A stretch of DNA of 64,000 nt from Liolophura sinensis (lineage: Eukaryota > Mollusca > Polyplacophora > Chitonida > Chitonidae). Under the pieces are notes generated by a model, which was not told the origin of the DNA, made no database searches, and saw nothing but the letters and a program-made list of their open reading frames with translations. Numbering within the stretch: position 1 is the stretch's first letter; every line of letters begins with the position of its first letter. A program made the translations under genes and the position numbers. Positions 621-53,071 of this stretch are shown one piece after another. The DNA lies in assembly GCF_032854445.1 (NCBI RefSeq), contig NC_088299.1, forward strand, positions 7,044,324-7,108,323. The letters run 5' to 3'.

Positions 621-1179
621 GTGAGCATCAACATTTTCTTACACAAGAAGTCAAATTCATGCTGTTTTTCAGCTGAAGGTAAAATGTTGCAATTTTCTCA
701 AACATATGATTGAGAAACATATGATTCGATTTTAGATGTACATATATACTGAAGCCATTTAAAGCATTTATTAACTTTACTGACAATTTGGCTGCACCTG
801 TCTGACTATAAAGTGCAATTTTATCACACTGAGCTGATTAAGTGGATCACATTACACTAGATTGGTTAAGTGTTATCTCATTGGCTGCTCAAGTGGTCTT
901 CCATTGAGCTGGTGAGATCCCATTCACATTAGCCTGGTCAGTGGGATCTTCTCACATTTGGATTACATTACCATACTATGAATACTGATCTTTACCGCTT
1001 TGTATTCTGTGAACTGCATTGATATGATTGGTTCTGTGAATGACCATTCTGGTGCTTGCATAAACTTTAACAAGCTGGCAGTAGATTTAGTAAAATCTGA
1101 AATAGAATGACATTTGTATTGCTACTTCTCCCCTAGCCAGCTATTCACCTTATAGCTCACCTGTATTACTCTACCTCAG

Positions 1180-1665
1180 GTGGACAACCCAGACTTTCAT
1201 GCTGACAAAGCTGTGGCCGCTGCCCCAGGCTCCACAGGCGGGACTGAGATCGGGCTAGACGTGACCTTTGAACCCTCCAAACTAGGCGAGCAGCGGGCCA
1301 TGCTGACAGTGAGCTCCCCACACGGCGGAGAATATGTCTTCCCTCTGTTTGGCTCCTGTGTCGCTCCCAAACCCCAGGGGCCTTACATCATCAAGGCAGG
1401 GTCCACCGTAGCCATAATGTTCAGGAACGTCTTCAGTAGTACCACTGCCTTCACGTTCCAGGTGGACAACCCCGCCTTCCACCTGACCAAGTCAGGTGAA
1501 AACATCCGCTCGCGCAAGGACCATCGTATAGTGGTGGGGTTTGATGGTAACGACACAGGCTCTAAGGCATCTGTGATGGGCAAGCTGATCATAACGTGTG
1601 CCAGGTCTGCTGGGGGTAACAGCAGCGCACAGTGGGTGTATTATCTTAAGGGCATTACCCCCTAG
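1180..1665 (+). CDS. CFAP47: CFAP47-like protein, last coding exon
   Basis: The exon begins directly after the acceptor 'CTACCTCAG' (ends 1179) and is open for 161 further codons to a TAG at 1663-1665. It begins VDNPDFHADK and ends WVYYLKGITP. The sequence is a beta-rich ASH/MSP-like repeat region (for example 'VTFEPSKLGEQRAMLTVSS', 'GGEYVFPLFGSC', 'PQGPYIIKAGSTV', 'FTFQVDNPAFHL'), the fold typical of CFAP47 and HYDIN-type axonemal proteins that attach to the central apparatus. Ending right after 'YYLKGI' fits my memory of the family C-terminus. No membrane segment or signal is seen. HYDIN-family alternatives are possible, but the VDNP-to-KGITP pattern favours CFAP47. Confidence 0.65.
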   Translation: MDNPDFHADKAVAAAPGSTGGTEIGLDVTFEPSKLGEQRAMLTVSSPHGGEYVFPLFGSCVAPKPQGPYIIKAGSTVAIMFRNVFSSTTAFTFQVDNPAFHLTKSGENIRSRKDHRIVVGFDGNDTGSKASVMGKLIITCARSAGGNSSAQWVYYLKGITP

Positions 1666-4936: not shown

Positions 4937-7900
4937 TCACAGGTTATCCCTAAACCTCTGGCGTTCGCTTTTCTTCTTAAACTTTTTGATAATCGCCACA
5001 ATTCCGGACAGAATTCCGAAGGAAGCGCCACTGCCTGCGGCCCCGATCCCGGCGGTTGTGGATGCTGCCAGTCCGGCTGCTCCAGCTGACTGGAGCAGGG
5101 CGCACAGGCTTCCGGCGGAGACGGCACCGCCATACGTGGACATGAACCAGGCGGCAAATGAGCCAGCGACAATCCCACCACTGCCAAAGCCAGCAGCTGC
5201 TATCACAAACGGTGCGGACACTATGGCAGCTATTCCCACACCGACCGAGGCCAGACCGATCAGAGCGTACCTCCCCACACCTGTGAACAAAACAAAGGAA
5301 TACTGGATGGAAACGATGCATGTCAAAGGGAAATTACCATATCTCCTGATACAAATGCCTTTCCTTATACAATTACCAATCCCTGTAAATATTTTCAAGA
5401 TTTTAAACATAAAAATTAATTTGATACATGAAAATAAAGGATAATGGTATTGAAGGCATTAAAATAAAATATTTGGGATTAGGATATGTTCCGGATTCTC
5501 AGTCAATTGAGAATATGACTTTTTCTCATGAATTGTAAAGCAAAGAGAAAATCACACCTTGCTACAGAATTGGAAGTGACGATATGGCCATTCCCCCTGG
5601 TATAAATTTATTACTAGAAATACATATACGACATATTGCTTTCCAAGCATATTTTATTGTTGATACATTTCTGCAAAACTAGTTTCACCGGGTCTTTTAG
5701 CCTATTCGTATAATATCCGTGTGAAATATTACATGATACAATGGATGACCATGGTTAATGGTCCAACACATCCAATGTCCCACCGCCAATGTCCCACCAC
5801 CCCTTGTCGTGACAACATTACTTTTTATTCCATTCCCGCTGGAAACAACTGTGACATCATATGGAGTCACAGAAAGGTTGAACATTTGTGACCAATGTGT
5901 GGGACATCCGGTTGACCTATTTGCATCAATACTGCTTTTGACTGATCATCTGCGTGTTCTTGGTTGGCAGTTCGGACAGGGATACACTTACTGCTTGGGT
6001 CTGGTGGTCTTTGTGGAGGGTCTAACACAACGTTTACCACATAGTTGTAAGCTACAAGAACAAAACAACGACAACAAGAAATGATTATTGTACCATGATA
6101 ATGAGACAACAATAATGTGCCAATTTTTGCATCTGTTAGTTTTGTATTGATTCAAATAATTGTGTTAGTATAATTAAAGATGTACAGTACAGAGTTTAAC
6201 CAGAGCAGCGACAACAGTGTCATAGCTGGCAAATGGTAACCCTTAACCGGTGAAATACATGTACGGTGTCTTGTGAGTTTATACCTCACCCAGGGTTTCA
6301 TTCTAACTGGTCATGTAAATGCATACCTAGCAGTTATTTACTTTAATCATCTATTAACTACCCTTCGTTTTACCATACCTTTCTTTTTCATGCTCTCTGC
6401 CATTGCCGTCAAGGTCGGATTAGCCAGACAATTGAACACGGCTTTCTCGTCCTTACTCATGAGAAAACACGCCACCTTCTGTCGACTGGTGGGGAAAAAC
6501 TTGTCAAGTTCCTCTTTCGTTACCACACCACTCAAGAAGAGGGTTTTACAGAAGACGTGCAAATCTTTGACGTGGGTAAGAATGGCCGGAAGTGCCAATG
6601 AATACCCAAGCTTTCTCAGGTGAACATCCAAATCAGGATCTTGACACACACGGGATTCTGATAAACATATAGCCATAAAATAACTATATATTAATATAGT
6701 TAATATTAAAAAACAGACAGTCGTAGACCAGCCGTCAACCAATAGGGACGTCCCGGGTCAATATTCGCAAGACCAATTCCCAAAACGACGTTTAACACAC
6801 GCAAGGTATATTCTAGGCCACGGATTGAAATCAGTATTCAAATCGTGTACCATGCTAGAAAATAAGTTGTCAATAATAAAACACGTATGCCAGTTGCGCT
6901 TTGATTGAAACTGTTTATATATGCAAAGCGGCCATGTAATTCCAACACGATGAATACACAGCCCCAAGTCCCGGGGTAAGCAGAATTAGACACAATCGTG
7001 AAGCAGAGCACCACAGATTCTGGACGCTCTTCATACAGTGGATATGACTTCAGTCAAAGGCTCAGGTCCACTTACATGTGCGTTTACCTGTAACCAGACT
7101 GCAGAAGAGGGTGACTAACTGTAATGGATTTATTTATTTATTTTATTGGTGTTTTACACTGTGTTCAAGAATATTTCACTTATACCACGGAGGCCAGCAT
7201 TTTGGTGGGAGGAAACCGGACAGAGCCCGGGGGAAACCTATAGCCATCCGCAGGTTGCTGGAAGACCTTCCGTACGTACGACCGAAGCATGGACTGCACT
7301 TGAACTCACAGCGACCAATTGGTTGAAGGCTCCTGGGTCATTGCGCCGCTAATCCTCGGCCACGGAGGTCCCAACTACCGTGGAAACAAATGCCATCAAG
7401 ACATGAGCTACAGTGTAATTACAATCAAATTAGCCTAAAGCTTTGTAGAAATGGGTGTGGATTGTTAGCTGAAAACAGAAGAATGCAGGCCTAGGACTTT
7501 TAGACAGCCGTAAGCGAGGGCCTTGAACATCACAAATGGCAGCTACATGTTACAAGTAATCCCTTCAGCTACATGGAAAAAGAGAGCCGATGTCAGCTTC
7601 ACAAACACCCTAATTTCAATCCTCCTTATGTAAAACCAGGCCCCGTTTTTTGTATCAAGTAACTTAAGTCATACATTTTAAGTGTGAGAACAGGAAAGAA
7701 CTCCAACTGCAGCTGGTATATTGTTCTACAGTAAAGAATCAGTGTACGAAGTTTGAAGTTCTTTGGGCAAAACATTTTATTAAGGGAGTTTCCAGTTCGA
7801 ACTCTTATCTGTGAAGGTAGAAAAAGTCCAACTGTCCATCCATTGTGACCTGTGAACTCAAAAAATGTTAAGCACCTTCACTTTTATATGGGCGTCTGAA

Positions 7901-10900
7901 GAAAGTGTCTTAAAATAATTTAAAATTAAGTTAATTTATTAATGATAGAGAAAATAGAGAAGCTGAACGTTTGTCTTGAGAAGTTTCTAAAGGAAAGTGG
8001 CGTCATTTGTGCCTCTGGAAAAAAGTCAGAGAGGTGATGAGTAAGTCAATTTCAACTAAGGTTGCCTAACATTTTTCCCTAGTCACATGACACAGCAGGG
8101 CCGTGTTTATCTTTGACGACAAAAGATTTCCAACTCCAAACTTCCTTACTGTAGCTGTTATTGAATTTTTCACCTAAGTCCTAAGACAGCTGATAAATAT
8201 GGGCCCAGAGAAGACTCAGCGAGGAAGTGTTGTATACAAACACACGATAAGGTTGGCCGAGTGGTCAAGAGATTTGCGTGTGGCCACCTGCCCTTAACCA
8301 TTAACAGCATGTCCTTCATGTCTTTGTATTCATCCCAAAAGCCTGGACTAATCCATGGATTCACATGAGGTCTGGACTAATCCATGGATTCACATGAGGT
8401 CTGGACTAAGCCATGGATTCACATGAGGTCTGGACTAAGCCATGGATTCACATGAGGTCTGGACTAATCCATGGATTCACATGAGGTCTGGACTAAGCCA
8501 TGGATTCACATGAGGTCTGGACTAAGTCATGGATTCACATGAGGTCTGGACTAAGCCATGGATTTCACATGAGGTCTGGACTAAGCCATGGATTCACATG
8601 AGGAGGTTTGGAATATAATGCATTGAAAATGTTTTAGCATAATCTTTGAATATAATAAAAGGAGAAGTAAAATATAATAAAAAATAGAACTATTTAATAC
8701 TTAAGAATTTAATTAATTTAACTGGTTTCACATCAAGAGGTTTGGAACATAATGCTTAAATCTGTTTAGCACAATCTTTCAATATAACATAAAAGAAAGT
8801 AAAACAAACAAAACATTTATGTAATTTATTCCTAAGAATGTAACTGCACTTTTGACAATTATACAACTTTTGAAAAGTGATGGAAAAAATGTACTTTTCA
8901 TTCAACATTCTAACATTTACTCATTTCTTTGCAACAATACTAGATAAACATTGTAAAACTGACCTGAGTCTCCCCAAAAATTGACGATTGCACGGGTGTG
9001 TCAGAATCCAAGACTTTATCCAGAATGTGATGGAAGGCTGAAATGTAAGGTCAACAGTTATATCCAGAAGGAACACACAACCTCCCCCCCCCCCCCCACC
9101 TTCCACTTATATTCTCCATTTTAAAATCACACCTTTAAATCCATAAAATAAACCATTAAAAGGATTTTCAAAAGCTCCCTTCACTAGGCTATTATAAGCC
9201 ATACAGCCATTCCTAAAGCCAAACGGTCAAAAAAATCCAAGATGGCCGACAACATCCACACTGAATTACGCAAGGTAAAGTAAAACCGTTCTTTTGCTGA
9301 TCTCAAGCATAAGTGTAAAATGTGAACTTGATTGCCCGAAACTTTTCAGGATATCTTCTTCAAACGGACAGGTGTGACGTGCCTGGAAATCCAAGATATA
9401 ACGTAGGGTGACAAAAATCATTCACAATCGTCCTCTCGCTGACGTCAAAATACTGTATAAGTATGAACTTGGTTGGTTCAAAACTGCTATAGTAATCAAC
9501 GGTTTTCTCACTGACCTCAAGCCGCTGTGTACATGTGGACACATATAAGTTGGCATGTTCATTTATGATTAAGTGATGTGCAGTGGGCGTGCCTTACTCC
9601 TTACAGCGCATGTGCCGCTCTCTACCTCGCTATTACTGCCAACATTAGACAAGCTTGACCTTCAGATCATCTGCGACGAACGTAAGATTGCCGAGGCTTA
9701 GCCTCGCCGCTGAAATCGTCATGCGAAACTATTTAATCAGCATTTATCTACAAAAAAATGGCCCAGGTGTCGATGAGAATAATGTTTTGAACACTTTGGA
9801 GAATTCATGTGTATACTGTATTCTTATAATCAATAAGAAGCTGAGACAGGATTTTAGTGTTTCTGCCACTTTCACTTTCTGCCTCATCACCCTGACCCCA
9901 GTGACCTCGGCGTTGTTCAAAATTTCTGTACAAAAAATGGCTAGTGTTGCAGTGATGTAAAGCGCACGTAGAGAGCGACCCATGCGCTGTAAGGAGTATC
10001 TGGGCGGGGTTTGATCGCTCAAAATTTTCTGGCTACACAAGCCGGTTCCATTCTGTGTTTGGCACTTCGGTGGCCTAATGGTTAGCGCGTCTGGGTCGAA
10101 GTCAGGAGACCCGACTGATTTTTTTGATTGAATTGTTTAAGACGTTTCATAAATGTGTGCCCCGGGCAATGCATCAGCTTAATTTGCATTGTAGCTCACC
10201 CAAGGAAGTGCTCTTTTTGAGCGATTGTGTATAAAAATACACAAGATATGTGTTACAGTCACACACAAATTGTTACAAATCTGCACAAGAACATTAATGT
10301 ATACCTAGCACTTATAATCTTTACACTCAAAAATAATCTGTTAATTTTAACAAAAACTCTGTTGTTTGTGTGATGCTAAATGAATTATGTTATTATAACA
10401 TAATACTGTGTTATATTCTACACAATATTCTGTTAGTCTAATAGACTCGTTAGATTGAATGACTAGAATTATGTGTGTGTTATATTTAAACAGAAGAATC
10501 TGCTGCAATAGCTGAATGCATTCTAGCATACCTCAGACAACAGACTTTTTGAGAGTATGTACCTAGCCTACATTTTATGTTCACCAAATTGTGTGCACTT
10601 GTGTAATTAATGGCACACATTTCCTTTTTGAAAATAATTACAGTATTTATCGTTCTTACAGATTACACTTTCAGAACAGTCAGTACAGATCAGAAATGTA
10701 ATTCATTATCGCTCTGGCTGGATAGCAGGTAACCTACCTTCCAAAACAGTGACCACAGTATAATCGGCTGCGGAGGCGTTCATCTCACAGATGGCTGCCA
10801 AAACTCCACTGTCGTCTGGATCCGAAGGCGATGCCAGCCAATAATCTTCCTTGCCCAGCAAAATCTTGTGTAGCACATTCTTACGCATTCTTGGGTTTGA

Positions 10901-11065
10901 GGCCTGTATGATTTTGAACAGGTCGTCTTTTGTAAGAAATCCTTTTTCACAGAGCCGGACACTAAATTTGTCCAATTCAGAAATTTGGTCCAGAATGTCT
11001 GGCAGAGATAATTTGTACGCCATATGAAAATATTTCCTCAGAAACTCTTCTTGATGATCAGCCAT
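4937..11065 (-). CDS. CARD-CARD-IFI6/IFI27 (ISG12-like) protein, copy A, four exons
   Basis: I joined four minus-strand exons: 11065-10738, 6657-6379, 6051-5992 and 5280-4937. All three junctions have GT/AG borders and are phase 1 (one base, then two), giving one 336-aa reading frame ending TGA. Residues 8-95 and about 121-190 are two death-fold segments of CARD type ('CEKGFLTKDDLFKI' and 'FLSGVVTKEELDKF' match the helix 2-3 region, each followed by a basic helix). Residues 203-222 are a Pro-rich linker. Residues 225-320 are a Gly/Ala-rich hydrophobic IFI6/IFI27 domain ('ALIGLASVGVGIAAIVSAP', 'SLCALLQSAGAAGLAAS'), followed by a basic tail (KKFKKK). Known ISG12 proteins are short membrane proteins induced by interferon and linked to mitochondria and apoptosis. 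An N-terminal double CARD is not part of the classical family. The ATG at 11065 lies 4 bases after an acceptor-like TTTCCAG, suggesting a 5' non-coding exon. Function is inferred. Confidence 0.72.
5281..5991. other. Intron 3 of copy A
   Basis: AT-rich intron between the linker exon and the IFI27 exon. It is copied almost unchanged in B (19492-20201) and C (24510-25219). Open stretches on either strand here are not conserved as codons and look incidental. Confidence 0.6.
7127..7372 (-). mobile_element. SINE family 1, reverse orientation (copy A; matches in B and C)
   Basis: The reverse complement carries the family-1 core and tail: 'ATTGGTGTTTTACACTGTG' at the left is the inverted tail, and 'GGCCACGGAGGTCCC' at the right is the inverted tRNA-like head. 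Equivalent copies sit at about 21361-21606 and 26379-26625, so the insertion predates the duplications. Confidence 0.8.
8343..8606. repeat. 29-bp minisatellite, about 9 units (copy A)
   Basis: Tandem units of 29 bp begin 'CTGGACTAATCCATGG' and contain 'ATTCACATGAGG'. Units alternate between AATCC and AAGCC variants. The same array has about 8 units in copy B and 11 in copy C. Confidence 0.95.
10738..11065 (-). CDS. Exon 1 of copy A: first CARD-like domain (unique to this copy)
   Basis: The exon runs from the start codon to a GTAGGT donor and encodes 109 residues plus one base. The core 'ILDQISELDKFSVRLCEKGF' followed by 'LTKDDLFKI' and 'RKNVLHKILLGK' has the helix spacing of a CARD. The end (DDSGVLAAICEMNASAADYT) is acidic and polar. 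Copies B and C have no equivalent, because their breakpoints exclude this stretch. It is therefore the only visible first coding exon in the cluster. Confidence 0.65.
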
Positions 11066-11400
11066 TGCTCTGGAAATATATGCGACCCTGCATAAATGAA
11101 AGTAAAATGTAATGATGGTTAATTGAGCACACATGAAAAATACAAACCACAGTCCAAGAAGTAAGTGTGAAAAAAAAAGCGTCAGTGTGGAGAGAATATT
11201 AACAACTTTACGCTGAAATACTCCCATAATTCAACTGCCCCCTCACTTACTTTCTTTTTTAACTTCTCTTTAAATTCCCCTCAGCGTAGAAAGTATCTAG
11301 GGTGAGCCCGGTTAATAAAAAGGGTGCACGGGATAATGTATTCTACCACAGACCAATATCACTGCAGCCTTCTCTGTCTCGAAAAACGACTATATGAATA
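11066..11400. promoter_or_regulatory. Upstream region of copy A exon 1 (no defined promoter)
   Basis: On the minus strand this is the DNA just upstream of the start codon. An acceptor-like TTTCCAG abuts the exon, and a purine-rich tract containing 'AAAAAAGAAAG' lies near 11250-11265. GAAA-type repeats recall IRF sites, but no proper ISRE consensus is present. The label is tentative. Confidence 0.2.
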
Positions 11401-11439
11401 TTATATTGACAAAAATGGTTCATAATATATACCAGAGTA

Positions 11440-11915
11440 CTGACACAGGTTCAGACGTTTGGCTTGTATTTCTTGACGTAGGCAAGGCCTTTGTCAATTG
11501 TGTCAAATGTGTCAATTTCAGCAAAGAAAATTAACCGAGATTTAGGCCCTTCGGCGCTGAGCCATATGGGCGGATCAGTGGATTGTTACATTTAATGCCC
11601 AGGAAACCGTGTATCTATACATGTCTCTAAAAAATAATCCAGCTCTTCCTAAACTCTAGTTTCAAGGTACTGAGGTGAAGAGCGTCCGGTGCCATAAGTA
11701 TCTCGGTGTGATATTGCAACAGGATGGAAAATGGGACGAGCGTATTCGGACGATAGTAACAAAATGATAAGAACACTTGGACGGAAATGTATGTTTATAC
11801 TTTATAAAAGCACGGTTAGATCGACACTAGAATGTGGTGATATGCTGCCTTCAATGCTTTTCACAAAAAAATTGAAAATGTACAACGTAGAGCAGCTATT
11901 TTGTAACGTTGTATA
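11440..11915 (+). pseudogene. Degenerate non-LTR retrotransposon reverse-transcriptase fragment
   Basis: Scattered plus-strand motifs of Jockey/RTE-type reverse transcriptases are visible across several frames and stops. 'FLDVGKAF' at about 11469-11492 corresponds to RT motif A. 'WADQWIVTFN' lies near 11566. 'HKYLGVILQQDGKWDERI' at about 11692-11745 is the thumb-proximal motif, followed by a degraded 'LYKSTVRSTLECGD'. The catalytic YxDD is not found. This is a dead fragment, present in copy A only because copy C lacks the interval. Confidence 0.6.
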
Positions 11916-13424
11916 ATGCTGGGCAATCATTGGCTAACCTATACATTAGGCAATATATTACGTACCACAAGTTAAAAGGTTGATGTTAACAATATTTCAA
12001 GAAAGTTACTGGAATGTATCTCGGTGAGACCACAATATTCATACAGCGAGCCACTCTAGAAAGCAATAATTAAACCCAGAATACCTCCAAGAAAAAAAAA
12101 TAAATCAGTCAGCAGAGCTTGTACGTGATAAAGTTACCTCCCTTTGTCAATTCGAAACCCGAAAATACATGTATCGAGGGATTATGATCAGAGCCGAAAA
12201 TTGCCGATAATATGATAAATGTGGTCGTATAAGAAGGGGTGAAATCTTTTACCTTAAAACCCGATTGGCTGTGTACACTTCACCTTTCAGACTGACAAGA
12301 CGTGGGTCGAATGGTTTCGATGAGATCGCGGCCTTGCTGTCTACAGCGAAGCGTTTGGTGTGAGGAAGAGGTCAATATTGGAGGTGTCTTAGGCAGGTAC
12401 TTCACCAAGGCGCGAAAAAAGAACCACGAAAACTATTCACAAGGTTCAACCTGAGTAGCAGTGTCTTAATAAACACATCGTTTTGGCGCTTAGGGGTGAA
12501 GATTTTCCGCTTTTTCTTTGGTTTCATGTTCATATTAACACCCCAGCCTACCCATTGGCGGTCGAGTCTAAGGTGGTCTTACTTCTTGTAAATTACAGGC
12601 CTGTGTAGGTTTACCCAGTATGTAGGTCACATATATGGTGGCGCGGAAGGGACATATCTCTTTTATTCCTTTTTATTTAATTGTTCATATTTTTAGCTGT
12701 TTAACTTCATCTATGTGCATGTACTAACTGCATGGGGTTTACTTTCTCCTTTCTTGGGGCCCTCGCTCTGGTTGCTCTGCGCCTCAAACTTTCTTATCCA
12801 GGAATGCACAGTAACTCAGCCTTTCTCCGCACCATGGGCCACATATATACGGAACCTGGGAAGGGGCATAGCTCTTTTATTCCTTTTTATTTATTTTTTT
12901 CTTTTCTTTTTGGCTATTGAAAAAAAAAAGAACTGCTGACCCCGTTTCCCCGTGTGATATACTTTGATATAGTCTGCCCATGCCTTTGTAAGTCAGACGG
13001 CAGTCAGTAACTACAAGAAAAAGAAACATGAACAGGTGTAAAGGAAGTGAATACGCCCTGCTGTTTCTGCTTTGGGAAATTTTTTAAAGCAGTTTTTTTT
13101 AACTGCAAAAGAAATTAATGGAAAATTTAGTAAAGTTTCCTTCCAAATCTATTTAACAGACAGACTACTCATCTTCTGATGCTAACCACTGCTCATAATG
13201 GCCACATATCACCCATGGATCTAAATCTCTTTATTTTCTCTTAACTTTTACCTGTCTAACTTTATATATGTACTGATAGCATATAGTTTATTTTCTTCTT
13301 TCTTAGGGCTCTATCTGCCACACAGAATTAAAGATTTGATTTGCTGCGACTGGCAGGCGTTTGGCAAGTAAATGAAGTCCCGTGCAATGTTCAATCCAGG
13401 TTTGAACCTTGGGCTGTATTTTTA

Positions 13425-13703
13425 AATTAATTGATTTGATTGGTGTTTTACGCTGTACTCGAGAATATTTCGCTTATACGACGACGGCCAGCATTATGGC
13501 GGGAGGATACCGGGCAGAGAGCAGGGGAACCCGATGATAGATTGTTAGCAGACCTTATCACGTACGGCCGAAGAGGACGCCAGCATGAGCTGGAATTGAA
13601 CTCACAGCGACGCATTGGTGCGAGCCGCGAACTGCTGTATCATTGCTGTGAGCTGCTGTGTCATTGCGGCGCGCTGGCGTGCTAACCATCTCACCCAGGT
13701 AGA
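13425..13703 (-). mobile_element. SINE family 1, reverse orientation (matches 29967-30245)
   Basis: Inverted tail 'GATTGGTGTTTTACGCTGTA' on the left, then 'CGGCCAGCATTATGGCGGG' (inverted core), and the head region on the right with inserted GAGCTGCTGT-type repeats. The copy at 29967-30245 shares these insertions, so it was duplicated with its host segment. Confidence 0.8.
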
Positions 13704-14240
13704 CCCTGGCTTTGGCTCTATTTTAGGTCAGCAGTACTCAGCTGTGATATCGGTTAGCCATGTTTCTAGGTTTTAGCTTTCACATTAACCGCTCCGAATC
13801 ACTCACTGAACACTTATCCTTAAGGCTGAATGTGCGCCACGCAAACAGGTCTTAAGTATATTTCACATCACATCACTCCATTATGCGAGAATAATAAAGA
13901 TCCTGACGTCGCGTTTGAGACAAAAATTGCACCTCAGATTAGTCTCCATGACCGTAAGTGTGTGGGCACTTTTCTACCTTACATTTTCGACTGTCAATTT
14001 ATGGCGAGCCCGACGTTGATCTGATAATTCCTAGGTCGTACAACATGAAGGGACGAGATTCTTTATTGACACTGAAAGCGACCAGCTGGCTGACAGCCTC
14101 CACATATATATACATGCCATTAATACGGTAATCTCTCACATGTAGTGTAAACATTTCTGATAAGAGCACCCCCCCCCCCCCCTTCCTAACCCTTCCACCA
14201 CCCGTACTTTCCTCTATACATTTCATGTCATATACACTGT

Positions 14241-14747
14241 GTGATCTCCTATGCCACGTGTACATTTTTGATAGAAACGTCCCAGGAGATCTCCTATGCC
14301 ATGTATAAATTTTTGATATCAACGTCCCAGGTGATCTATGCAATGTACACATCTGTGCCTGCAGAAGGACAAGGGTTTACGACGACCCCAGCCTTGTGTC
14401 AGGAGGTATTTTCGGTACCTGGTGAAGGACAGTGCTTCACAATGAACCCAGCCTTATGTCAGGAGATAAATCTGGTACCTGGTCAGGTAAAGTGGTTACC
14501 GCGAGCCCAGCTTTATGTCAGGAGATATCCGGTATCTGGTGAACTCCTTTCACATGTGGTCACAGTACTAGTGAAATCATGTCAAATATGTCCACAATAC
14601 CAGTGGGCATCTGTGACCCACGAAGAGTTGACCAAACTACCCAGGAAGGAAAAAACAAACAAAACAATAATTTTTCTGATAAAAATATATTTTGCTCATT
14701 ATTATTTCTACAAAAGGCAGTTGATCATGATTTCTGAGATTCAGTAA
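14241..14747 (+). other. Open frame of 168 codons over 45-bp and 60-bp tandem repeats
   Basis: Both repeat periods are multiples of three, so a frame stays open and encodes imperfect 20-residue repeats containing 'VPGEGQCFTMNPALCQE'. The duplicate at 30793-31254 also stays open (153 codons) despite point changes. No Kozak context, splice site or known domain supports it as a gene. A by-product of repeat periodicity is the simpler reading. Confidence 0.25.
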
Positions 14748-15189
14748 CTAATACTAACCACGGGCTGGTTTCTAACAGACGCTCAAACAAACAGACGCCC
14801 AAACAAACAGACACACAAACAAACAGACACACAAACAAACAGACAACCACTTGGTGACCCTTTAACACGCAGATTAGCCACCTCACTGTTATGAATGAAT
14901 TACATAAAAAAAAAATTCTTTTCTTCAACTGGCTGATATCAGGGGACATTTTGCTGTTATGACAGCTTTTGGCAAAATTAATTATCCAGAGCAAAATGTC
15001 CGTGTCTGGTGTAACCACAACAACGTGACGCTTACAAGTGCTGGAGTTCTTTTTACAAAGAGTTCTTAGCATGTAACTACAGTGGTAACATTATGCTTAC
15101 AGTACTGCGGCATTCCACAAAGCATGCTTAGCGTTACAGGTAGGTTATCACCATTGTATGAAATACTGTTGGTATTATGTCGTATATTG

Positions 15190-15998
15190 ACCCAGACAAT
15201 TGAACCAGACAAGATTAAAGGGAAAGAACAGATGCCGACCCTTACCTCGAGAAAGGAACTGGAAACGGTGATGAGTATATCAATTACCTCACCAGGACTT
15301 GCCACAGCCACAGCTCCAATAACAGAACTCTTAAAAGAAAATGTTGAGTGGCTACGGGACGCAAATTGTGACAAAGCATTTGAACAGGTGAAATCCATCA
15401 TCACGCGAACACCAGGGCCGGTGTTAGCATACTATGACGTCACCATCCAAGTAGACGTGTCAGAATCAGGCCTTGGCGCAGTCATTCTTCAAGAAGGCAA
15501 ACCAGTTGCCTACGTCTCACGAGCACTTACGCCGACACAGCAAAACTATGCACAGATAGAAAAAGAAATGTTGGCAATTCAGTTTGGGTGTGAGAAGTTT
15601 CATTCTTATATCTGTGGCAAACAAGTGACAGTACACAGTGATCACAAGCCGCTTGAGATAATCATGCGCAAACTACTGGCTTCAGCACCACCCAGACTAC
15701 AGCGCACGATGTTGCGCTTACAGCGCTGCGATTTGAACGTAGTTTTTCGCCCCGGAAAGGAAATTCCAATTGCGGACACACTCTCGAGAAATTACAAATC
15801 TGGACATGACGCACATGAAGATCCAACCGTGGAAGAGCACGTTCATGCAGTATTTGAACGGATCCCAATAATTGATCAAAAACTGGAAAAAATCAAATCG
15901 GAAACACAGAAGGATCAAACTCTCATCAAACTTCAGTCTGTCATTCACAGAGGCTGGCCACAGATTAAACAAGTGGACGCTGATCTGAGAGAATTCTG
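15190..15998 (+). pseudogene. pol: Ty3/Gypsy pol fragment: end of RT and RNase H
   Basis: Plus-strand open frame starting inside the RT connection region ('TIEPDKIKGKEQMPTLTSRK') and running through RNase H, with its acidic residues in 'VDVSESGLGA' (near 15451), 'IEKEMLAI' (near 15559) and 'HSDHKPLE' (near 15637), and 'PGKEIPIADTLSR' at the domain end. Gag, protease and most of RT are absent. The left edge coincides with the duplication breakpoint rather than a transposon end. A SINE interrupts the frame at 15999. Such elements copy themselves through RNA; this copy cannot. Confidence 0.9.
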
Positions 15999-16328
15999 AG
16001 TGAGTGAGTGAGTGCTGGGGTTTAACGTCGTACTCAACAATTTTTCAGTCATATGACGACGAAGAAATCATTAGGGTGCATGTACATGTAATGTACCTCC
16101 TTGTTGCAGGACGGATTTCCACCGCTCTTTTATTTAGTGCTGCTTCACTGAGACGACTTACCGAAGGCAAGTAAGCCGCACCGCCCGAGCCATTATACTG
16201 ATACGGGTCAACCAGTCGTTGCACTATCCCCTTCATGCTGAACGCCAAGCGAGGAAGTTACAACTTCCTCTTTTAAAGTCTTAGGTGTGACTCGATCAAG
16301 GATTGACCCTGGATCTACCGGTCCCGAA
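15999..16328 (-). mobile_element. SINE family 2 inserted into Gypsy pol, with 12-bp target-site duplication
   Basis: A reverse-orientation family-2 SINE (GAGTGAGTG tail at the left, tRNA-like head at the right) lies between direct repeats GAGAGAATTCTG (15987-15998 and 16329-16340). The duplication shows insertion after the retroelement had landed. The head appears shortened compared with 38699-39030. Confidence 0.93.
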
Positions 16329-17407
16329 GAGAGAATTCTGGCATGTGCGAGACGAACTGACTGTTTTGAACGGCATAGTGTTCAAAAGTGACAAAATTGT
16401 GATTCCAGCATCATTGCATGTCGACATGCTGCAACGGATACAGGCAGGACATTTCGGCATGGAACTTTGCAAATTGAGGACTAAATGGACAGATTGTAGC
16501 ACATGTTTTGAACTCAAGTCCTCCCCACCGAAGGAACCGATGATGTCACCGCCGATACCAAACGGGCCATGGAAATTGTTAGCCACAGACCTGTTTGAGT
16601 GGGACAACCGTAACTATCTCATTGTGGCTGATTATTATAGTCACTATTTTGAGATCAGTATGTTACCTAATATCACCGCCAACAGTGTCATCAACCACAT
16701 GAAGTCAATCTTTGCCCGGCACGGCATATGTGAAGAACTGATATCTGACAATGGAAGCCAATATACATCTGCAGAATTCAAAAGATTCGCTGCAGAATTT
16801 CAAGCACACCATGAACAGCCCCTACCATAACCAATCTAACGGACGTGCTGAAAAGTATGTCGGTATAGTAAAACGGATCATGAAGAAAGCCTAGTCCGAC
16901 GGTACTGACCCGTACATGGGACTGTTAGTCTACAGAAATACACCCACTGATGGAACGGCTACACCAGCTCAACTCCTAATGAGTCGTCGTCTTCGAGACA
17001 ACCTCCCAGTCCAACAAAAACAGCTCCGTCCATCTGTACAAAACGCAAAAGATGTACAAAGGCGACTTTCACAGAAACGGATGAACAGTGAGAAATACTA
17101 TAACCGTAACACCCAATCTCAAAAACCATGGAGGGAAGGAGAGGATGTGTACATGCAAACACTCAATGGGAAATGGAAACCAGCGACAGTGAGAAAAGTA
17201 GCCGAGATACCACGATCATATATTGTCTCCACATCTGCCGGTGGAAATTTTCAACGGAACCATCGTCACATCATTCCGTCCAAACCACCACGGCTAGCCA
17301 ACAGCCCGAACAACAAATTAACAGGCTCGACACCTCCACCGCTGGAAAATCAAACTCATCCTGAGAGTTCCAACTTAACAGTTCTCACGTTTTGGTCGAC
17401 GTATTAA
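16329..17407 (+). pseudogene. pol: Ty3/Gypsy pol fragment: integrase, with frameshift, stop and deletion
   Basis: After the SINE the frame resumes with 'FWHVRDELTVLNG' and the integrase. 'LATDLFEW' and 'SDNGSQY' carry the first two catalytic acids and 'GRAEKYVG' (near 16850) the third. Lesions are a missing stretch in the HHCC zinc region between 'MELCKLR' and 'CSTC', a frameshift near 16796-16805, and an in-frame TAG at 16892-16894. The C-terminal part (from 16916) keeps 'YRNTPTDGTATPAQLL' and a later domain to TAA at 17405. The element is inactive. Confidence 0.9.
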
Positions 17408-19147: not shown

Positions 19148-20867
19148 TCACAGGTTATCCCTAAACCCCTGGCTTTCGCTTTTCTTCTTAAACTTTTTGA
19201 TAATCGCCAAAATTCCGGACAGAATACCGAAGGAAGCGCCAGTGCCTGCGGCCCCGATCCCGGCGGTTGTGGATGCTGCCAGTCCGGCTGCTCCAGCTGA
19301 CTGGAGCAGGGCGCACAGGCTTCCGGCGGAGACGGCACCGCCATACGTGGACATGAACCAGGCGGCAAATGAGCCAGCGACAATCCCACCACTGCCAAAG
19401 CCAGCAGCTGCTATCGCAAACGGTGCGGACACAATGGCAGCTATTCCCACACCGACCGAGGCCAGACCGATCAGAGCGTACCTCCCCACACCTGTGAACA
19501 AAACAAAGGAATACTGGATGGAAACGATGCATGTCAAAGGGAAATTACCATATCTCCTGATACAAATGCCTTTCTTTATACAATTACCAATTCCTGTAAA
19601 ATTTTCAAGATTTTAAACATAAAAATTAATTTGATACATGAAAATAAAGGATAATGGTATTGAAGGCATTAAAATAAAATATTTGGGATTAGGATATGTT
19701 CCGGATCCTCAGTCAATTGAGAATATGACTTTTTCTCATGAATTGTAAAGCAAAGAGAAAATCACACCTTGCTACAGAATTGGAAGTGACGATATGGCCA
19801 TTCCCCCTGGTATAAATTTATTACTAAAAATACATATACGACATATTGCTTTCCAAGCATATTTTATTGTTGATACATTTCTGCAAAACTAGTTTCACCG
19901 GGTCTTTTAGCCTATTCGTATAATATCCGTGTGAAATATTACATGATACAATGGATGACCATGGTTAATGGTCCAACACATCCAATGTCCCACCGCCAAT
20001 GTCCCACCACCCCTTGTCGTGACAACATTACTTTTTATTCCATTCCCGCTGGAAACAACTGTGACATCATATGGAGTCACAGAAAGGTTGAACATTTGTG
20101 ACCAATGTGTGGGACATCCGGTTGACCTATTTGCATCAATACTGCTTTTGACTGATCATCTGCGTGTTCTTGGTTGGCAGTTCGGACAGGGATACACTTA
20201 CTGCTTGGGTCTGGTGGTCTTTGTGGAGGGTCTAACACAACGTTTACCACATAGTTGTAAGCTACAAGAACAAAACAACAACAACAAGAAATGATTATTG
20301 TACCATGATAATGAGACAACAATAATGTGCCAATTTTTGCATCTGTTAGTTTTGTATTGATTCAAATAATTGTGTTAGTATAATTAAAGATGTACAGTAC
20401 AGAGTTTAACCAGAGCAGCGACAACAGTGTCATAGCTGGCAAATGGTAACACTTAACCGGTGAAATACATGTACGGTGTCTTGTGAGTTTATACCTCACC
20501 CAGGGTTTCATTCTAACTGGTCATGTAAATGCATACCTAGCAGTTATTTACTTTAATCATCTATTAACTACCCTTCGTTTTACCATACCTTTCTTTTTCA
20601 TGCTCTCTGCCTTTGCCGTCAAGGTTGGATTAGCCAGACAATTGAACACGGCTTTCTCGTCCTTACTCATGAGAAAACACGCCACCTTCTGTCGACTGGT
20701 GGGGAAAAACTTGTCAAGTTCCTCTTTCGTTACCACACCACTCAAGAAGAGGGTTTTACAGAAGACGTGCAAATCTTTGACGTGGGTAAGAATGGCCGGA
20801 AGTGCCAATGAATACCCAAGCTTTCTCAGGTGAACATCCAAATCAGGGTCTTGACACACACGGGATT
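19148..20867 (-). CDS. CARD-IFI27-like protein, copy B (exons 2-4, no exon 1)
   Basis: Exons 20867-20589, 20261-20202 and 19491-19148 match copy A exons 2-4 in length and splice sites, and all remain open. The protein has one CARD-like domain, the Pro linker and the IFI27 hydrophobic domain, with a few changes (for example LTAKAES for LTAMAES, GTG for GSG, and RQRF to SQGF near the end). No exon 1 lies in copy B. If splicing from outside does not supply one, the frame stays open upstream of the acceptor to an ATG at 20952. That would give a 255-aa product with an N-terminal hydrophobic stretch ('TTVCFLILTILIYSYFMA'). Whether it is expressed is unknown; it may be a decaying duplicate, but the absence of frame lesions argues for youth or use. 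Confidence 0.6.
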
Positions 20868-21360
20868 CTGATAAACATATAGCCATAAAATAACTATATA
20901 TTAATATAGTTAATATTAAAAAACAGACAGTCGTAGACCAGCCGTCAACCAATAGGGACGTCCCGGGTCAAGACCAATTCCCAAAACGACGTTTAACACA
21001 GACTACCAATGAACTCAAGAAAGTATACAAAAACGCAAGGTATATTCTAGGCGACGGATTGAAATCAGTATTCAAATCGTGTACCATGCTAGAAAATAAG
21101 TTGTCAATAATAAAACATGTATGCCAGTTGCGCTTTGATTGAAACTGTTTATATATGCAAAGCGGCCATGTAATTCCAACACGATGAATACACCGCCCCA
21201 AGTCCCGGGGTAAGCAGAATTAGACACAATCGTGAAGCAGAGCACCACAGATTCTGGACGCTCTTCATACAGTGGATATGACTTCAGTCAAAGGCTCAGG
21301 TCCACTTACATGTGCGTTTACCTGTAACCACACTGCAGAAGAGGGTGACTAACTCTAATG

Positions 21361-24165: not shown

Positions 24166-25885
24166 TCACAGGTTATCCCTAAACCCCTGGCTTTCGCTTT
24201 TCTTCTTAAACTTTTTGTTAATCGCCACAATTCCGGACAGAATTCCGAAGAAAGCGCCAGTGCCTGCGGCCCCGATCCCGGCGGTTGTGGATGCTGCCAG
24301 TCCGGCTGCTCCAGCTGACTGGAGCAGGGCGCACAGGCTTCCGGCGGAGACGGCACCACCATACGTGGACATGAACCAGGCGGCAAATGAGCCAGCGCCA
24401 ATCCCACCACTGCCAAAGCCAGCAGCTGCTATCACAAACGGTGCGGACACTATGGCAGCTATTCCCACACCGACCGAGGCCAGACCGATCAGAGCGTACC
24501 TCCCCACACCTGTGAACAAAACAAAGGAATACTGGATGGAAACGATGCATGTCAAAGGGAAATTACCATATCTCCTGATACAAATGCCTTTCTTTATACA
24601 ATTACCAATTCCTGTAAAATTTTCAAGATTTTAAACATAAAAATTAATTTGATACATGAAAATAAAGGATAATGGTATTGAAGGCATTAAAATAAAATAT
24701 TTGGGATTAGGATATGTTCCGGATCCTCAGTCAATTGAGAATATGACTTTTTCTCATGAATTGTAAAGCAAAGAGAAAATCACACCTTGCTACAGAATTG
24801 GAAGTGACGATATGGCCATTCCCCCTGGTATAAATTTATTACTAAAAATACATATACGACATATTGCTTTCCAAGCATATTTTATTGTTGATACATTTCT
24901 GCAAAACTAGTTTCATCGGGTCTTTTAGCCTATTCGTATAATATCCGTGTGAAATATTACATGATACAATGGATGACCATGGTTAATGGTCCAACACATC
25001 CAATGTCCCACCGCCAATGTCCCACCACCCCTTGTCGTGACAACATTACTTTTTATTCCATTCCCGCTGGAAACAACTGTGACATCATATGGAGTCACAG
25101 AAAGGTTGCACATTTGTGACCAATGTGTGGGACATCCGGTTGACCTATTTGCATCAATACTGCTTTTGACTGATCATCTGCGTGTTCTTGGTTGGCAGTT
25201 CGGACAGGGATACACTTACTGCTTGGGTCTGGTGGTCTTTGTGGAGGGTCTAACACAACGTTTACCACATAGTTGTAAGCTACAAGAACAAAACAACAAC
25301 AACAAGAAATGATTATTGTACCATGATAATGAGACAACAATAATGTGCCAATTTTTGCATCTGTTAGCTTTGTATTGATTCAAATAATTGTGTTAGTATA
25401 ATTAAAGATGTACAGTACAGAGTTTAACCAGAGCAGCGACAACAGTGTCATAGCTGGCAAATGGTAACACTTAACCGGTGAAATACATGTACGGTGTCTT
25501 GTGAGTTTATACCTCACCCAGGGTTTCATTCTAACTGGTCATGTAAATGCATACCTAGCAGTTATTTACTTTAATCATCTATTAACTACCCTTCGTTTTA
25601 CCATACCTTTCTTTTTCATGCTCTCTGCCTTTGCCGTCAAGGTTGGATTAGCCAGACAATTGAACACGGCTTTCTCGTCCTTATTCATGAGAAAACACGC
25701 CACCTTCTGTCGACTGGTGGGGAAAAACTTGTCAAGTTCCTCTTTCGTTACCACACCACTCAAGAAGAGGGTTTTACAGAAGACGTGCAAATCTTTGACG
25801 TGGGTAAGAATGGCCGGAAGTGCCAATGAATACCCAAGCTTTCTCAGGTGAACATCCAAATCAGGGTCTTGACACACACGGGATT
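24166..25885 (-). CDS. CARD-IFI27-like protein, copy C (exons 2-4, no exon 1)
   Basis: Exons 25885-25607, 25279-25220 and 24509-24166 have exactly the lengths (279, 60 and 344 bp) and splice borders of copies A and B, and are intact. Changes include MNKDE for MSKDE in the CARD, GIGAGSF for GIVAGSF, GAFF for GASF and AINKKF for AIIKKF in the hydrophobic part. It is offset from copy B by 5,018 bp. Upstream, a deletion removes the interval that held exon 1 in copy A, so translation would need the ATG at 25970 or an unseen exon. Function as for copy A, with one CARD fewer. Confidence 0.6.
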
Positions 25886-26378
25886 CTGATAAACATATAG
25901 CCATAAAATAACTATATATTAATATAGTTAATATTAAAAAACAGACAGTCGTAGACCAGCCGTCAACCAATAGGGACGTCCCGGGTCAAGACCAATTCCC
26001 AAAACGACGTTTAACACAGACTACCAATGAACTCAAGAAAGTATACAAAAACGCAAGGTATATTCTAGGCGACGGATTGAAATCAGTATTCAAATCGTGT
26101 ACCATGCTAGAAAATAAGTTGTCAATAATAAAACATGTATGCCAGTTGCGCTTTGATTGAAACTGTTTATATATGCAAAGCGGCCATGTAATTCCAACAC
26201 GATGAATACACCGCCCCAAGTCTCGGGGTAAGCAGAATTAGACACAATCGTGAAGCAGAGCACCACAGATTCTGGACGCTCTTCATACAGTGGATATGAC
26301 TTCAGTCAAAGGCTCAGGTCCACTTACATGTGCGTTTACCTGTAACCACACTGCAGAAGAGGGTGACTAACTCTAATG

Positions 26379-28740: not shown

Positions 28741-31740
28741 GATTGCCGATAATATGATAAATGTGGTCGTATAAGAAGGGGTGAAATCTTTTACCTTAAA
28801 ACCCGATTGGCTGTGTACACTTCACCTTCCAGACTGACAAGACGTGGGTCGAATGGTTTCGATGAGATCGCGGCCTTGTTGTCTACAGCGAAGCGTTTGG
28901 TATGAGGAAGAGGTCAATATTGGAGGTGTCTTAGGCAGGTACTTCACCAAGGCGCGAAAAAAGAACCACGAAAACTATTCACAAGGTTCAACCTGAGTAG
29001 CAGTGTCTTAATAAACACATCGTTTAGGCGCTTAGGGGTGAAGATTTTCCGCTTTTTCTTTGGTTTCATGTTCATATTAACACCCCAGCCTACCCATTGG
29101 CGGTCGAGTCTAAGGTGGTCTTACTTCTTGTAAATTACAGGCCTGTGTAGGTTTACCCAGTATGTAGGTCACATATATGGTGGCGCGGAAGGGACATATC
29201 TCTTTTATTCCTTTTTATTTAATTGTTCATATTTTTAGCTGTTTAACTTCATCTATGTGCATGTACTAACTGCATGGGGTTTACTTTCTCCTTTCTTGGG
29301 GCCCTCGCTCTGGTTGCTCTGCGCCTCAAACTTTCTTATCCAGGAATGCACAGTAACTCAGCCTTTCTCCGCACCATGGGCCACATATATACGGAACCTG
29401 GGAAGGGTCATAGCTCTTTTATTCCTTTTTATTTATTTTTTTCTTTTCTTTTTGGCTATTGAAAAAAAAAAGAACTGCTGACCCTGTTTCCCCGTGTGAT
29501 ATACTTTGATATAGTCTGCCCATGCCTTTGTAAGTCAGACGGCAGTCAGTAACTACAAGAAAAAGAAACATGAACAGGTGTAAAGGAAGTGAATACGCCC
29601 TGCTGTTTCTGCTTTGGGAAATTTTTTAAAGCAGTTTTTTTTAACTGCAAAAGAAATTAATGGAAAATTTAGTAAAGTTTCCTTCCAAATCTATTTAACA
29701 GACAGACTACTCATCTTCTGATGCTAACCACTGCTCATAATGGCCACATATCACCCATGGATCTAAATCTCTTTATTTTCTCTTAACTTTTACCTGTCTA
29801 AGTTTATATATGTACTGATAGCATATAGTTTATTTTCTTCTTTCTTAGGGCTCTATCTGCCACACAGAATTAAAGATTTGATTTGCTGCGACTGGCAGGC
29901 GTTTGGCAAGTAAATGAAGTCCCGTGCAATGTTCAATCCAGGTTTGAACCTTGGGCTGTATTTTTAAATTAATTGATTTGATTGGTGTTTTACGCCGTAC
30001 TCGAGAATATTTCGCTTATACGACGACGGCCAGCATTATGGCGGGAGGAAACCGGGCAGAGAACAGGGGAACCCGATGATAGATTGTTAGCAGACCTTAT
30101 CACGTACGGCCGAAGAGGACGCCAGCATGAGCTGGAATTGAACTCACAGCGACGCATTGGTGCGAACTGCGAGCTGCTGTATCATTGCTGTGAGCTGCTG
30201 TGTCATTGCGGCGCGCTGGCGTGCTAACCATCTCAGCCACGTAGACCCTGGCTTTGGCTCTATTTTAGGTCAGCAGTACTCAGCTGTGATATCGGTTAGC
30301 CATGTTTCTAGGTTTTAGCTTTCACATTAACCGCTCCGAATCACTCACTGAACACTTACCCTTAAGGCTGAATGTGCGCCACGCAAACAGGTCTTAAGTA
30401 TATTTCACACCACATCACTCCATTATGCGGGAATGATAAAGATCCTGACATCGCGTTTGAGTCAAAAATTGCACCTCAGATTAGTCTCCATGACCGTAAG
30501 TGTGTGGGCACTTTTCTACCTTACCCTTTCGACTGTCCATTTATGGCGAGCCCGACGTTGATCTGATAATTCCTAGGTCGTACAACATGAAGGGACGAGA
30601 TTCTTTATTGACTGAAAGCGACCAGCTGGCTGACAGCCTCCACATATATATACATGCCATTAATACGGCAATCTCTCACATGTAGTGTAAACATTTCTGA
30701 TAAGAGCACCCCCCCCCCACCTTCCTAACCCTTCCCCCACCCACCACCACCACCCGTACTTTCCTCTATACATTTCATGTCATATACACTGTGTGATCTC
30801 CTATGCCACGTGTACATTTTTGATAGAAACGTCCCAGGAGATCTCCTATGCCATGTATAAATTTTTGATATCAACGTCCCAGGTGATCTATGCAATGTAC
30901 ACATCTGTGCCTGCAGAAGGACAAGGGTTTACGACGATCCCAGTCTTGTGTCAGGAGGTATTTTTGGTACCTGGTGAAGGACAGTGCTTCACAATGAACC
31001 CAGCCTTATGTCAGGAGATAAATCCGGTACCTGGTCAAGGACAGTGGTTACCGCGAGCCCAGCGTTATGTCAGGAGATATCCGGTATCTGGTGAACTCCT
31101 TTCACATGTGGTCACAGTACTGGTGAAATCATGTCAAATATGTCCACAATACCAGCGGGCATCTGTGACCCACGAAGAGTTGACCAAACTATCCAGGAAG
31201 GAAAAAACAAACAAAACAATAATTTTTCTGATAAAAATATATTGCTCATTATAATTTCTACAAAAGGCAGTTGATTATGATTTCTGAGATTCAGTAACTA
31301 ATACTAACCACGGGCTGGTTTCTAACAGACGCTCAAACAAACAGACGCCCAAACAAAATGACACACAAACCAACAGACACACAAACAAACAGACAACCAC
31401 TTGGTGACCCTTTAACACGCAGATTAGCCACCTCACTGTTATGAATGAATTACATAAAAAAAATTCTTTTCTTCAACTGGCTGATATCAGGGGACATTTT
31501 GCTGTTATGACAGCTTTTGGCAAAATTAATTATCCAGAGCAAAATGTCCGTGTCTGGTGTAACCACAACAACGTGACGCCTACAAGTGCTGGAGTTCTTT
31601 TTACAAAGAGATCTTAGCATGTAACTACAGTGGTAACATTATGCTTACAGTACTGCGGCATTCCACAAAGCATGCTTAGCGTTACCGGTTGGTCATCACC
31701 ATTGTATGAAATACTGTTGGTATTATGTTGTATATTGACC
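28741..31740. repeat. Duplicated non-coding segment (pair of 12200-15190)
   Basis: Begins abruptly at 'CTCTCGCTGA|TTGCCGATAA', fusing the equivalent of A 9440 to A ~12202. It includes a reversed SINE (29967-30245), the 60-bp repeat open frame (30793-31254) and an ACAAACAAACAG microsatellite (about 31327-31400). It ends at 'GTATATTGACC', after which unique sequence follows. Confidence 0.85.
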
Positions 31741-32178: not shown

Positions 32179-32215
32179 ATTCTGCTGACCGCACCAAGGA
32201 CAGAATTGACAACCT

Positions 32216-49694: not shown

Positions 49695-50145
49695 GATAAT
49701 GATTAATACTCACCACACACAATGCTTTCTGATACAGAATAATTGATACTCACCACACACAATGCTTTCTGATACAGAATAATTGATACTCACCACACAC
49801 AATGCTTTCTGATACAGAACAATACTCACCACACACAATGCTTTCTGGTACAGAATAATTAATACTCACCACACACAATGCTTTCTGATACAGAACAATA
49901 CTCACCACACACAATGCTTTCTGGTACAGAACAATACTCACCACACACAATGCTTTCTGGTACAGAATAATTAATACTCACCACACACAATGCTTTCTGG
50001 TACAGAATAATTAATACTCACCACACACAATGCTTTCTGATGCAGAATAATCAATACTCACCACACACAATGCTTTCTGATACAGAATAATTAATACTCA
50101 CCACACACAATGCTTTCTGATACAGAATAATTAATGCTCCACACA
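49695..50145. repeat. ~36-40-bp minisatellite, about 12 units
   Basis: Units contain 'ACTCACCACACACAATGC' and 'TTTCTGATACAGAATAATT'. Shorter units lack the ATTAAT tail and end GAACAAT. Confidence 0.95.
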
Positions 50146-50426
50146 CAATGTGTTTTGTGATACAAAACAAACTGTGTAGAAAACACCACAGGATTGTGTA
50201 CGGTGATAGACGCTTATATCTGAATCATTAATGATGTGGCGGAGCAGTCGGTAACTTTGCATTTAAATAAAACAAAACGGAAAATGATGAACAAGTATTA
50301 CCTACTTCGCTTTAAATCACTTTTGTGGAGTGTGGAGGTATGATGTCGTAAACTTTTATTGTGTGCTTAAGGCATATCCTGTGGTTGTATTGTGTGGTAT
50401 GATTATGATGTCAAAATATCTGAACG

Positions 50427-53058: not shown

Positions 53059-53071
53059 GTGAGGGTCAGTC

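Follow-up and report, generated by a model that had tools for sequence, protein, structure and literature searches.

A candidate fusion of two divergent CARD-like repeats with an IFI6/IFI27 membrane domain in the chiton Liolophura sinensis

Introduction

Can a membrane domain of the IFI6/IFI27 family be carried in one polypeptide chain together with domains of the CARD type? The question is raised by a locus of Liolophura sinensis which lies on the reverse strand of a stretch of 64,000 nucleotides, here called the window (C5:7,044,324-7,108,323), more than 7 Mb into its contig in a genome of 609 Mb and 632 contigs. A preliminary description of this DNA had read in it a spliced gene coding for two CARDs, a Pro-rich linker and an IFI6/IFI27 hydrophobic domain. 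The analysis presented here gives close to an even chance to a four-exon animal gene whose product combines two divergent CARD-like repeats, a Pro-rich linker and an IFI6/IFI27 membrane domain, and which may work as a membrane-anchored CARD adaptor or decoy; this reading and the alternatives weighed below overlap, and the likelihoods given to them need not sum to one. No description of CARD-like repeats followed by an IFI27 domain was found among the matches listed in the open-access literature, as represented by titles and abstract openings. Three points go beyond the preliminary description: the window contains two further copies of exons 2-4, exon 1 is single, and exons and introns have diverged equally.

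Gene Structure and Coding Potential

The gene model (Table 1) agrees with that of the preliminary description, since the four exons have GT-AG at every border, the three introns are all in phase 1, and the frame gives a product of 336 amino acids (aa) followed by a stop codon; the Pro-rich linker that had been claimed corresponds to exon 3. Among 320 border combinations scanned, six are open (products of 334-348 aa), and the 336-aa form is preferred because its donors (GTAGGT, GTATGG, and GTAAGT) look strongest by eye. An acceptor-like stretch, also noted by eye, directly precedes the start codon on its 5' side and suggests a non-coding first exon. Intron 1 contains a 31-nt inverted repeat (window 9595-9998, 94% complementary, spacing 342 nt), perhaps a small foldback element.

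Table 1. Positions in the window of the fusion gene and of its partial copies
Feature	Position	Strand	Description
Exon 1	11065-10738	-	Start codon and first CARD-like repeat, 109 codons + 1 base; based on border, frame, codon usage, and native CARD profile
Intron 1	6658..10737	-	Phase 1; ~29-bp tandem repeat at ~8341-8603
Exon 2	6657-6379	-	Second CARD-like repeat, 93 codons; copies at 20589-20867 and 25607-25885
Exon 3	6051-5992	-	Pro-rich linker, 20 codons, symmetric 1-1
Exon 4	5280-4937	-	IFI6/IFI27 (Ifi-6-16) hydrophobic domain, basic tail, stop
Copy B of exons 2-4	19148..20867	-	Open frame, without exon 1
Copy C of exons 2-4	24166..25885	-	Open frame, without exon 1
Stretch of copy A including exon 1, with no counterpart at copy C	9442..12200		Edges join at 28742

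Codon usage was scored against a background of 58 open frames of at least 70 codons, exon 3 being too short to score. Of these background frames, 1/58 exceeds exons 1 and 2 (0.141 and 0.150) and 3/58 exceed exon 4 (0.051), which is also outscored by an antisense frame of its own (0.157). CARD and DED exons were part of the 3170 training codons, which may slightly favour helical proteins. The open frame of the fusion gene exceeds chance, owing to the codon usage of exons 1-2 together with the family match of exon 4 and the homology of exons 1 and 2 set out below. In particular, two open frames on the same strand, 4 kb apart, that encode a common protein domain are hard to obtain by chance.

The 4 kb of intron 1 are also consistent with two adjacent genes read as one, in which exon 1, perhaps with exon 2, would be part of a distinct CARD-like gene and the start of the IFI gene would lie near exon 2 or at exon 3. 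Two further copies of exons 2-4 in the window (B and C, the fusion gene being copy A) point in the same direction, as they keep these exons and the same in-frame ATG 19 bases before exon 2, without exon 1. However, the phase-1 GTAGGT donor of exon 1 fits the acceptor of exon 2, and the two exons encode the same domain type; a pair of neighbouring genes is considered improbable.

The C-Terminal IFI6/IFI27 Domain

Exon 4 is, by its sequence, a clear member of the IFI6/IFI27 family, as the preliminary description had proposed. It matches the Pfam family Ifi-6-16 (PF06140) with 63.7 bits against a cut-off of 29.1 (expectation value (E) 1.5e-17, profile positions 3-80 of 84), which is the sole Pfam match of the fusion protein, and it is also recovered when the genome is searched with this profile. 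The sole credible match of exon 4 in the PDB is IFI27L1 (2loq, 7.8e-5), aligned with aa 232-307. Hydropathy peaks are confined to this part of the protein (aa 224-265 and 301-320), and its hydrophobic segments are predicted to insert into, and to be able to span, a membrane. No relatives of exon 4 were found in the viral contigs or in the bacterial and archaeal genomes searched.

The N-Terminal Repeats

Exons 1 and 2 represent an ancient repetition of a single domain, as judged from their encoded proteins: their Smith-Waterman score of 68 is reached by none of 5000 shuffles (maximum 49), and BLASTP aligns them with 35% over 52 aa (E 2e-6 as a single comparison). The viral contigs searched hold no relatives of the repeats.

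The resemblance of this domain to CARDs emerges from comparison with the CARDs of the same genome. The Pfam profile PF00619 (cut-off 23.9 bits) has 41 scored matches in the genome, including 27 exons over the cut-off, of which 21 form the native CARD profile, the six shorter than 65 aa being left out. With this profile exon 1 scores 7.7 bits, a value that none of 1000 shuffles reaches; when the typed CARDs described below are added, exon 1 scores 6.4 bits (2/1000). Left-out native CARDs, each scored against the remaining native and typed ones, reach 29.3-86.3 bits in 21/21 cases, some aided by near-identical paralogues. In profile-profile comparison, exons 1 and 2 together score 29.0 against the 21 native CARDs (probability 70%, E 4.1e-5 as a single comparison); none of 300 column shuffles reaches this score (maximum 20.2), the reversed control gives 10.2, and five unrelated pieces of the window give 7.3-11.9. 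On the same native profile typed pairs of non-CARD death folds score 9.1-17.1 (n = 6) and typed pairs of CARDs 36.9-65.2 (n = 4), and with native and typed CARDs combined the pair of exons scores 24.2 (37.3%). The DED profile PF01335 has 27 scored matches in the genome, none of them in the window, with eight exons over the cut-off; these eight native DEDs score 18.2 against exons 1 and 2, and when eight native CARDs are drawn at random 20 times, 16 draws lie above this value, one equals it, and three lie below. For exon 1 alone, the native CARD and DED scores are 21.5 and 16.2.

Several results weigh against the assignment of the repeats to CARDs. Exons 1 and 2 have no CARD, DED, or Death match in Pfam at E up to 10, a negative made narrower by the HMMER filters, which drop most matches above ~0.1, and none of the 41 PF00619 matches in the genome lies in the window. 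Profiles built from typed domain sequences (17 human and nematode CARDs, three PYDs, four DEDs, and four Death domains) do not recover the repeats as CARDs either: the CARD profile gives 1.7 bits for exon 1 (38/1000 shuffles reach it) and -0.2 for exon 2 (189/1000), below the 6.2-57.8 bits of all 17 left-out typed CARDs (0/300 shuffles each), and among 11 other death folds, which range from -2.4 to 3.5 bits, the Death domain of MyD88 (3.5) scores above exon 1. The PYD profile performs no worse than the CARD one (2.0 bits, 20/1000, for exon 1 and 0.5, 81/1000, for exon 2); the DED profile gives 0.4 (123/1000) and -1.0 (392/1000), and the Death profile -2.5 (569/1000) and -1.5 (281/1000). In profile-profile comparison with the typed sets, exons 1 and 2 reach 16.9 with CARD at a probability of 3.3% (0/100 shuffles, maximum 16.8), a narrow lead over PYD (15.6, 1/100), followed by DED (12.8, 20/100) and Death (10.8, 29/100), three held-out pairs of typed CARDs scoring 21.3-46.5. 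As the CARD and PYD scores are nearly equal, the typed sets cannot separate the two for these repeats. The native profile itself leaves exon 2 alone unrecognised (0.8 bits, 69/1000 shuffles, or 0.8, 51/1000, with the typed CARDs added; 14.3 at 1.6% in profile-profile comparison, with 12.3 for DED), its alignment with the repeats extends over ~49 columns that cover helices 2-5 and leave helix 6 uncovered, and the native comparison sets consist of CARDs and DEDs only.

As to the death fold of six helices expected from the preliminary description, structure prediction places six helices in each repeat, but at predicted local distance difference test (pLDDT) values of 49.4 and 52.9, too low to judge the fold; fold searches with these low-confidence models listed no death fold, the matches being unrelated helical proteins.

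The repeats could thus be a helical domain other than a CARD, either a PYD-like or other death fold or a lineage-specific fold, in which case the weak CARD score would reflect a helix-turn-helix motif only and the protein would join an IFI domain to another kind of binding module. Such a domain would account for the missing Pfam match, for the failure of the typed CARD profile where PYD does no worse, for an alignment limited to helices 2-5, and for the unrelated fold matches, but with the native CARD profile no shuffle reaches the score of exon 1 or of the pair, and the pair fares better there than with native DEDs. This alternative deserves serious weight, though it falls short of an even chance, and the repeats have somewhat better than even prospects of being divergent CARD-like domains, a reading based on helices 2-5, mainly those of exon 1, and on the homology of exon 1 to exon 2. 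Of the domain order claimed in the preliminary description, the Pfam comparison returns PF06140 at the C-terminus and no CARD, Death, or DED in the N-terminal segments; its two CARDs are retained as tandem homologous repeats, with exon 1 and the pair weakly recognised by native CARDs, and not as domains that curated or typed CARD models identify or that exon 2 displays by itself. The CARD label is plausible, if unproven, the recognition of the repeat pair by the native profile being weak.

Duplication and Divergence of the Locus

The locus has recently been duplicated into an array. There are four genomic copies of exons 2-4, namely A, B, and C in the window and a frameshifted one on contig C12; in A, B, and C these exons are open with identical borders, and in the C12 copy, whose aligned introns are ~9% diverged, the frame is lost in exons 2 and 4. 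The full exon 1 is single in the genome, its remaining three genome matches being cross-matches to exon 2. Copy B ends at the equivalent of 9758, and copy C skips from 9442 to 12200; on C12 the stretch 8948-11049 is missing, and ~17 bases at the start of exon 1 are all that is left of this exon. Because copies B, C, and C12 lack the full exon 1, copy A is the only copy found that is able to make the two-repeat form. The insertion of the exon 1 stretch into copy A was considered and set aside, since the different breakpoints of the other three copies and the first exon 1 bases kept on C12 make loss elsewhere simpler, with the direction unproven. A candidate relative of exon 2 on contig C7 was also rejected, as its E is 2.14 genome-wide and 1.3e-4 only in a small set, which looks like chance.

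An in-frame ATG is located 19 bases 5' of exon 2 in copies A, B, and C (6658-6676, 20868-20886, and 25886-25904, minus strand); in B and C, it could serve as the start of a protein with a single repeat. The array is flanked by a segmental duplicate (12200-15192 and 28742-31740, 97.7% identity), parts of which also occur on C12 (L015, L016) with lower identity, and fragments of retrotransposons, encoding RNase H-like (PF17917) and integrase (PF00665) domains, lie between copies A and B at 15070-17407 (+).

The introns of copy A differ from those of B and C by 1.9-2.0%, and those of B and C from each other by only 0.9%. The latter value would suit an assembly artefact, in which the three copies of the window are partly uncollapsed haplotypes and the array is one gene; against this, copy A is ~2% apart from both, the breakpoints differ among the copies, and the window is situated deep within its contig, so that an artefact is given a small chance at most.

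Exons diverge like introns: among A, B, and C they differ by 0-2.3%, and between A and C12 by 9.6-13.3%, with 9.0% in the introns. This similarity counts against a functional fusion, and because of it selection is not shown. In exon 4, B and C differ at 8/344 positions, above their intron rate of 34/3749. Between A and C12, the proportions of nonsynonymous (pN) and synonymous (pS) differences, taken exon by exon, are 0.111/0.053 (exon 2), 0.115/0.225 (exon 3), and 0.070/0.151 (exon 4), with 0.091/0.122 overall; the few changes among A, B, and C give 0.012-0.016 over 0.018-0.024. The lower pN than pS of exon 4 against C12 is a hint of constraint limited to the IFI domain, beyond which these proportions neither show nor exclude constraint, because the C12 branch is partly that of a dead gene.

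These data bear on a further explanation, namely that the fusion is real but is decaying in a duplication-prone locus, in which copy A would owe its intact state only to its young age or to chance. The like divergence of exons and introns, the exon 4 difference between B and C, the pN of exon 2 above its pS, the frameshifts and residual exon 1 of the C12 copy, and the absence of exon 1 from B and C are all in keeping with decay. Nevertheless, A, B, and C maintain open exons 2-4 and identical borders, exon 4 has the reverse relation of pN and pS, and the codon usage of exons 1-2 looks coding; decay is judged rather unlikely.

Origin of the Fusion

Three other Ifi-6-16 exons are present in the genome, all on contig C11, with 35/87, 33/83, and 30/84 identical residues over those aligned with exon 4. 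In one of these genes (L004), a signal-peptide exon lies upstream, and a phase-1 GTAGGT donor allows it to be read on into the IFI exon as a short IFI6-type protein of the ordinary kind; this join was picked by its donor among 11 open joins, with two candidate signal-peptide exons. For the second (L006), a phase-0 join with a poor donor was the only one obtained, and in the third (L007) no signal-peptide-to-IFI join was found. L006 seems to have lost the acceptor common to L004 and L007. In the region C11:2115001-2145000 (L017-L019), three IFI6/IFI27 exons lie amid minisatellites, together with several signal-peptide exons.

As a phase-1 intron precedes the IFI exon in the fusion gene and, as read, in L004, the fusion probably arose by phase-1 exon shuffling, through which the CARD-like exons and the linker exon would have taken the place of the signal-peptide exon of an ordinary IFI gene. 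The fusion protein has the same C-terminal domain as human IFI27L1 and the products of the C11 genes, whereas its N-terminal extension consists of two CARD-like repeats in place of a signal peptide.

Possible Function

MAVS is built of an N-terminal CARD, a Pro-rich stretch, and a single C-terminal membrane anchor directed to mitochondria. The predicted fusion protein is similar in the order of a CARD-like part, a Pro-rich linker, and a C-terminal membrane segment, and differs in having two repeats, a linker of 20 aa, and an IFI-type anchor; on the native CARD profile its repeat pair (29.0) remains below three pairs that contain MAVS (36.9, 38.0, and 57.8). Its tandem CARD-like repeats also recall the tandem N-terminal CARDs of RIG-I-like receptors (RLRs), including DRH-1, but the fusion protein is without a helicase and has a membrane domain instead.

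If the repeats are CARD-like, the IFI domain would insert into an internal membrane (endoplasmic reticulum or mitochondrion), the repeats would be exposed to the cytosol, where they would bind CARD partners or polymerise with them, and the protein would act as a membrane-anchored CARD adaptor or decoy, MAVS-like in its working and not a relative of MAVS. The MAVS-like or pore-like executor envisaged in the preliminary description is likewise an inference. Of the two roles, that of adaptor is tentative and on the unlikely side, and that of decoy or brake is less likely still. Both are suggested by analogies with IFI6/IFI27 and RIG-I, shrimp IFI6-16, mussel IFI27, DRH-1, and lophotrochozoan RLRs. 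In mammals, IFI6 and IFI27 reportedly restrain RIG-I and interact with it, most likely by way of RNA (PMC9923010, PMC10175689). Shrimp IFI6-16, with a putative signal peptide, increases in response to poly(I:C) and to virus and has been proposed to work via apoptosis genes (PMC9144789), and mussel IFI27/ISG12 is among the top expressed transcripts of what is apparently a haemocyte list (PMC4581086). The nematode DRH-1 signals through two CARDs that are missing from the annotation (PMC11260149). Lophotrochozoan RLRs gain N-terminal domains by grafting (PMC8998645), which is similar to the fusion in that new N-terminal domains come through exon changes, and different in the recipient gene family. 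A study of oyster IAPs found no CARD in them.

A more far-reaching and likewise unlikely proposal is an all-in-one antiviral signalling or death protein, in which tandem CARDs would have replaced the IFI signal peptide by phase-1 shuffling and CARD polymerisation would act directly on the IFI membrane domain, making the protein an independent MAVS-like platform or membrane executor. The presence of an IFI domain and CARD-like repeats in one chain would, if true, tie IFI6/IFI27 to the CARD side, represented by RIG-I; the fusion would also offer a means of testing how IFI domains act at membranes and would represent a second route to a membrane-bound CARD platform.

Other Features of the Window

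Outside the array, the window contains an Arg-Ser-rich open frame at 53063-53557 (+), which is followed by an apparent start of an RNA-binding domain, as judged by eye, and has no Pfam match on this piece. A 169-aa open frame at 1156-1665 (+) has a weak match to a Cep192 domain below the cut-off (22.3 bits against 33.5). Long tandem-repeat arrays extend over 32213-33971 and 49698-50164, with units of ~37 bp and ~40 bp, respectively, as derived from self-match offsets, and an open frame of 592 aa at 41700-43478 (-) encodes several C2H2 zinc fingers.

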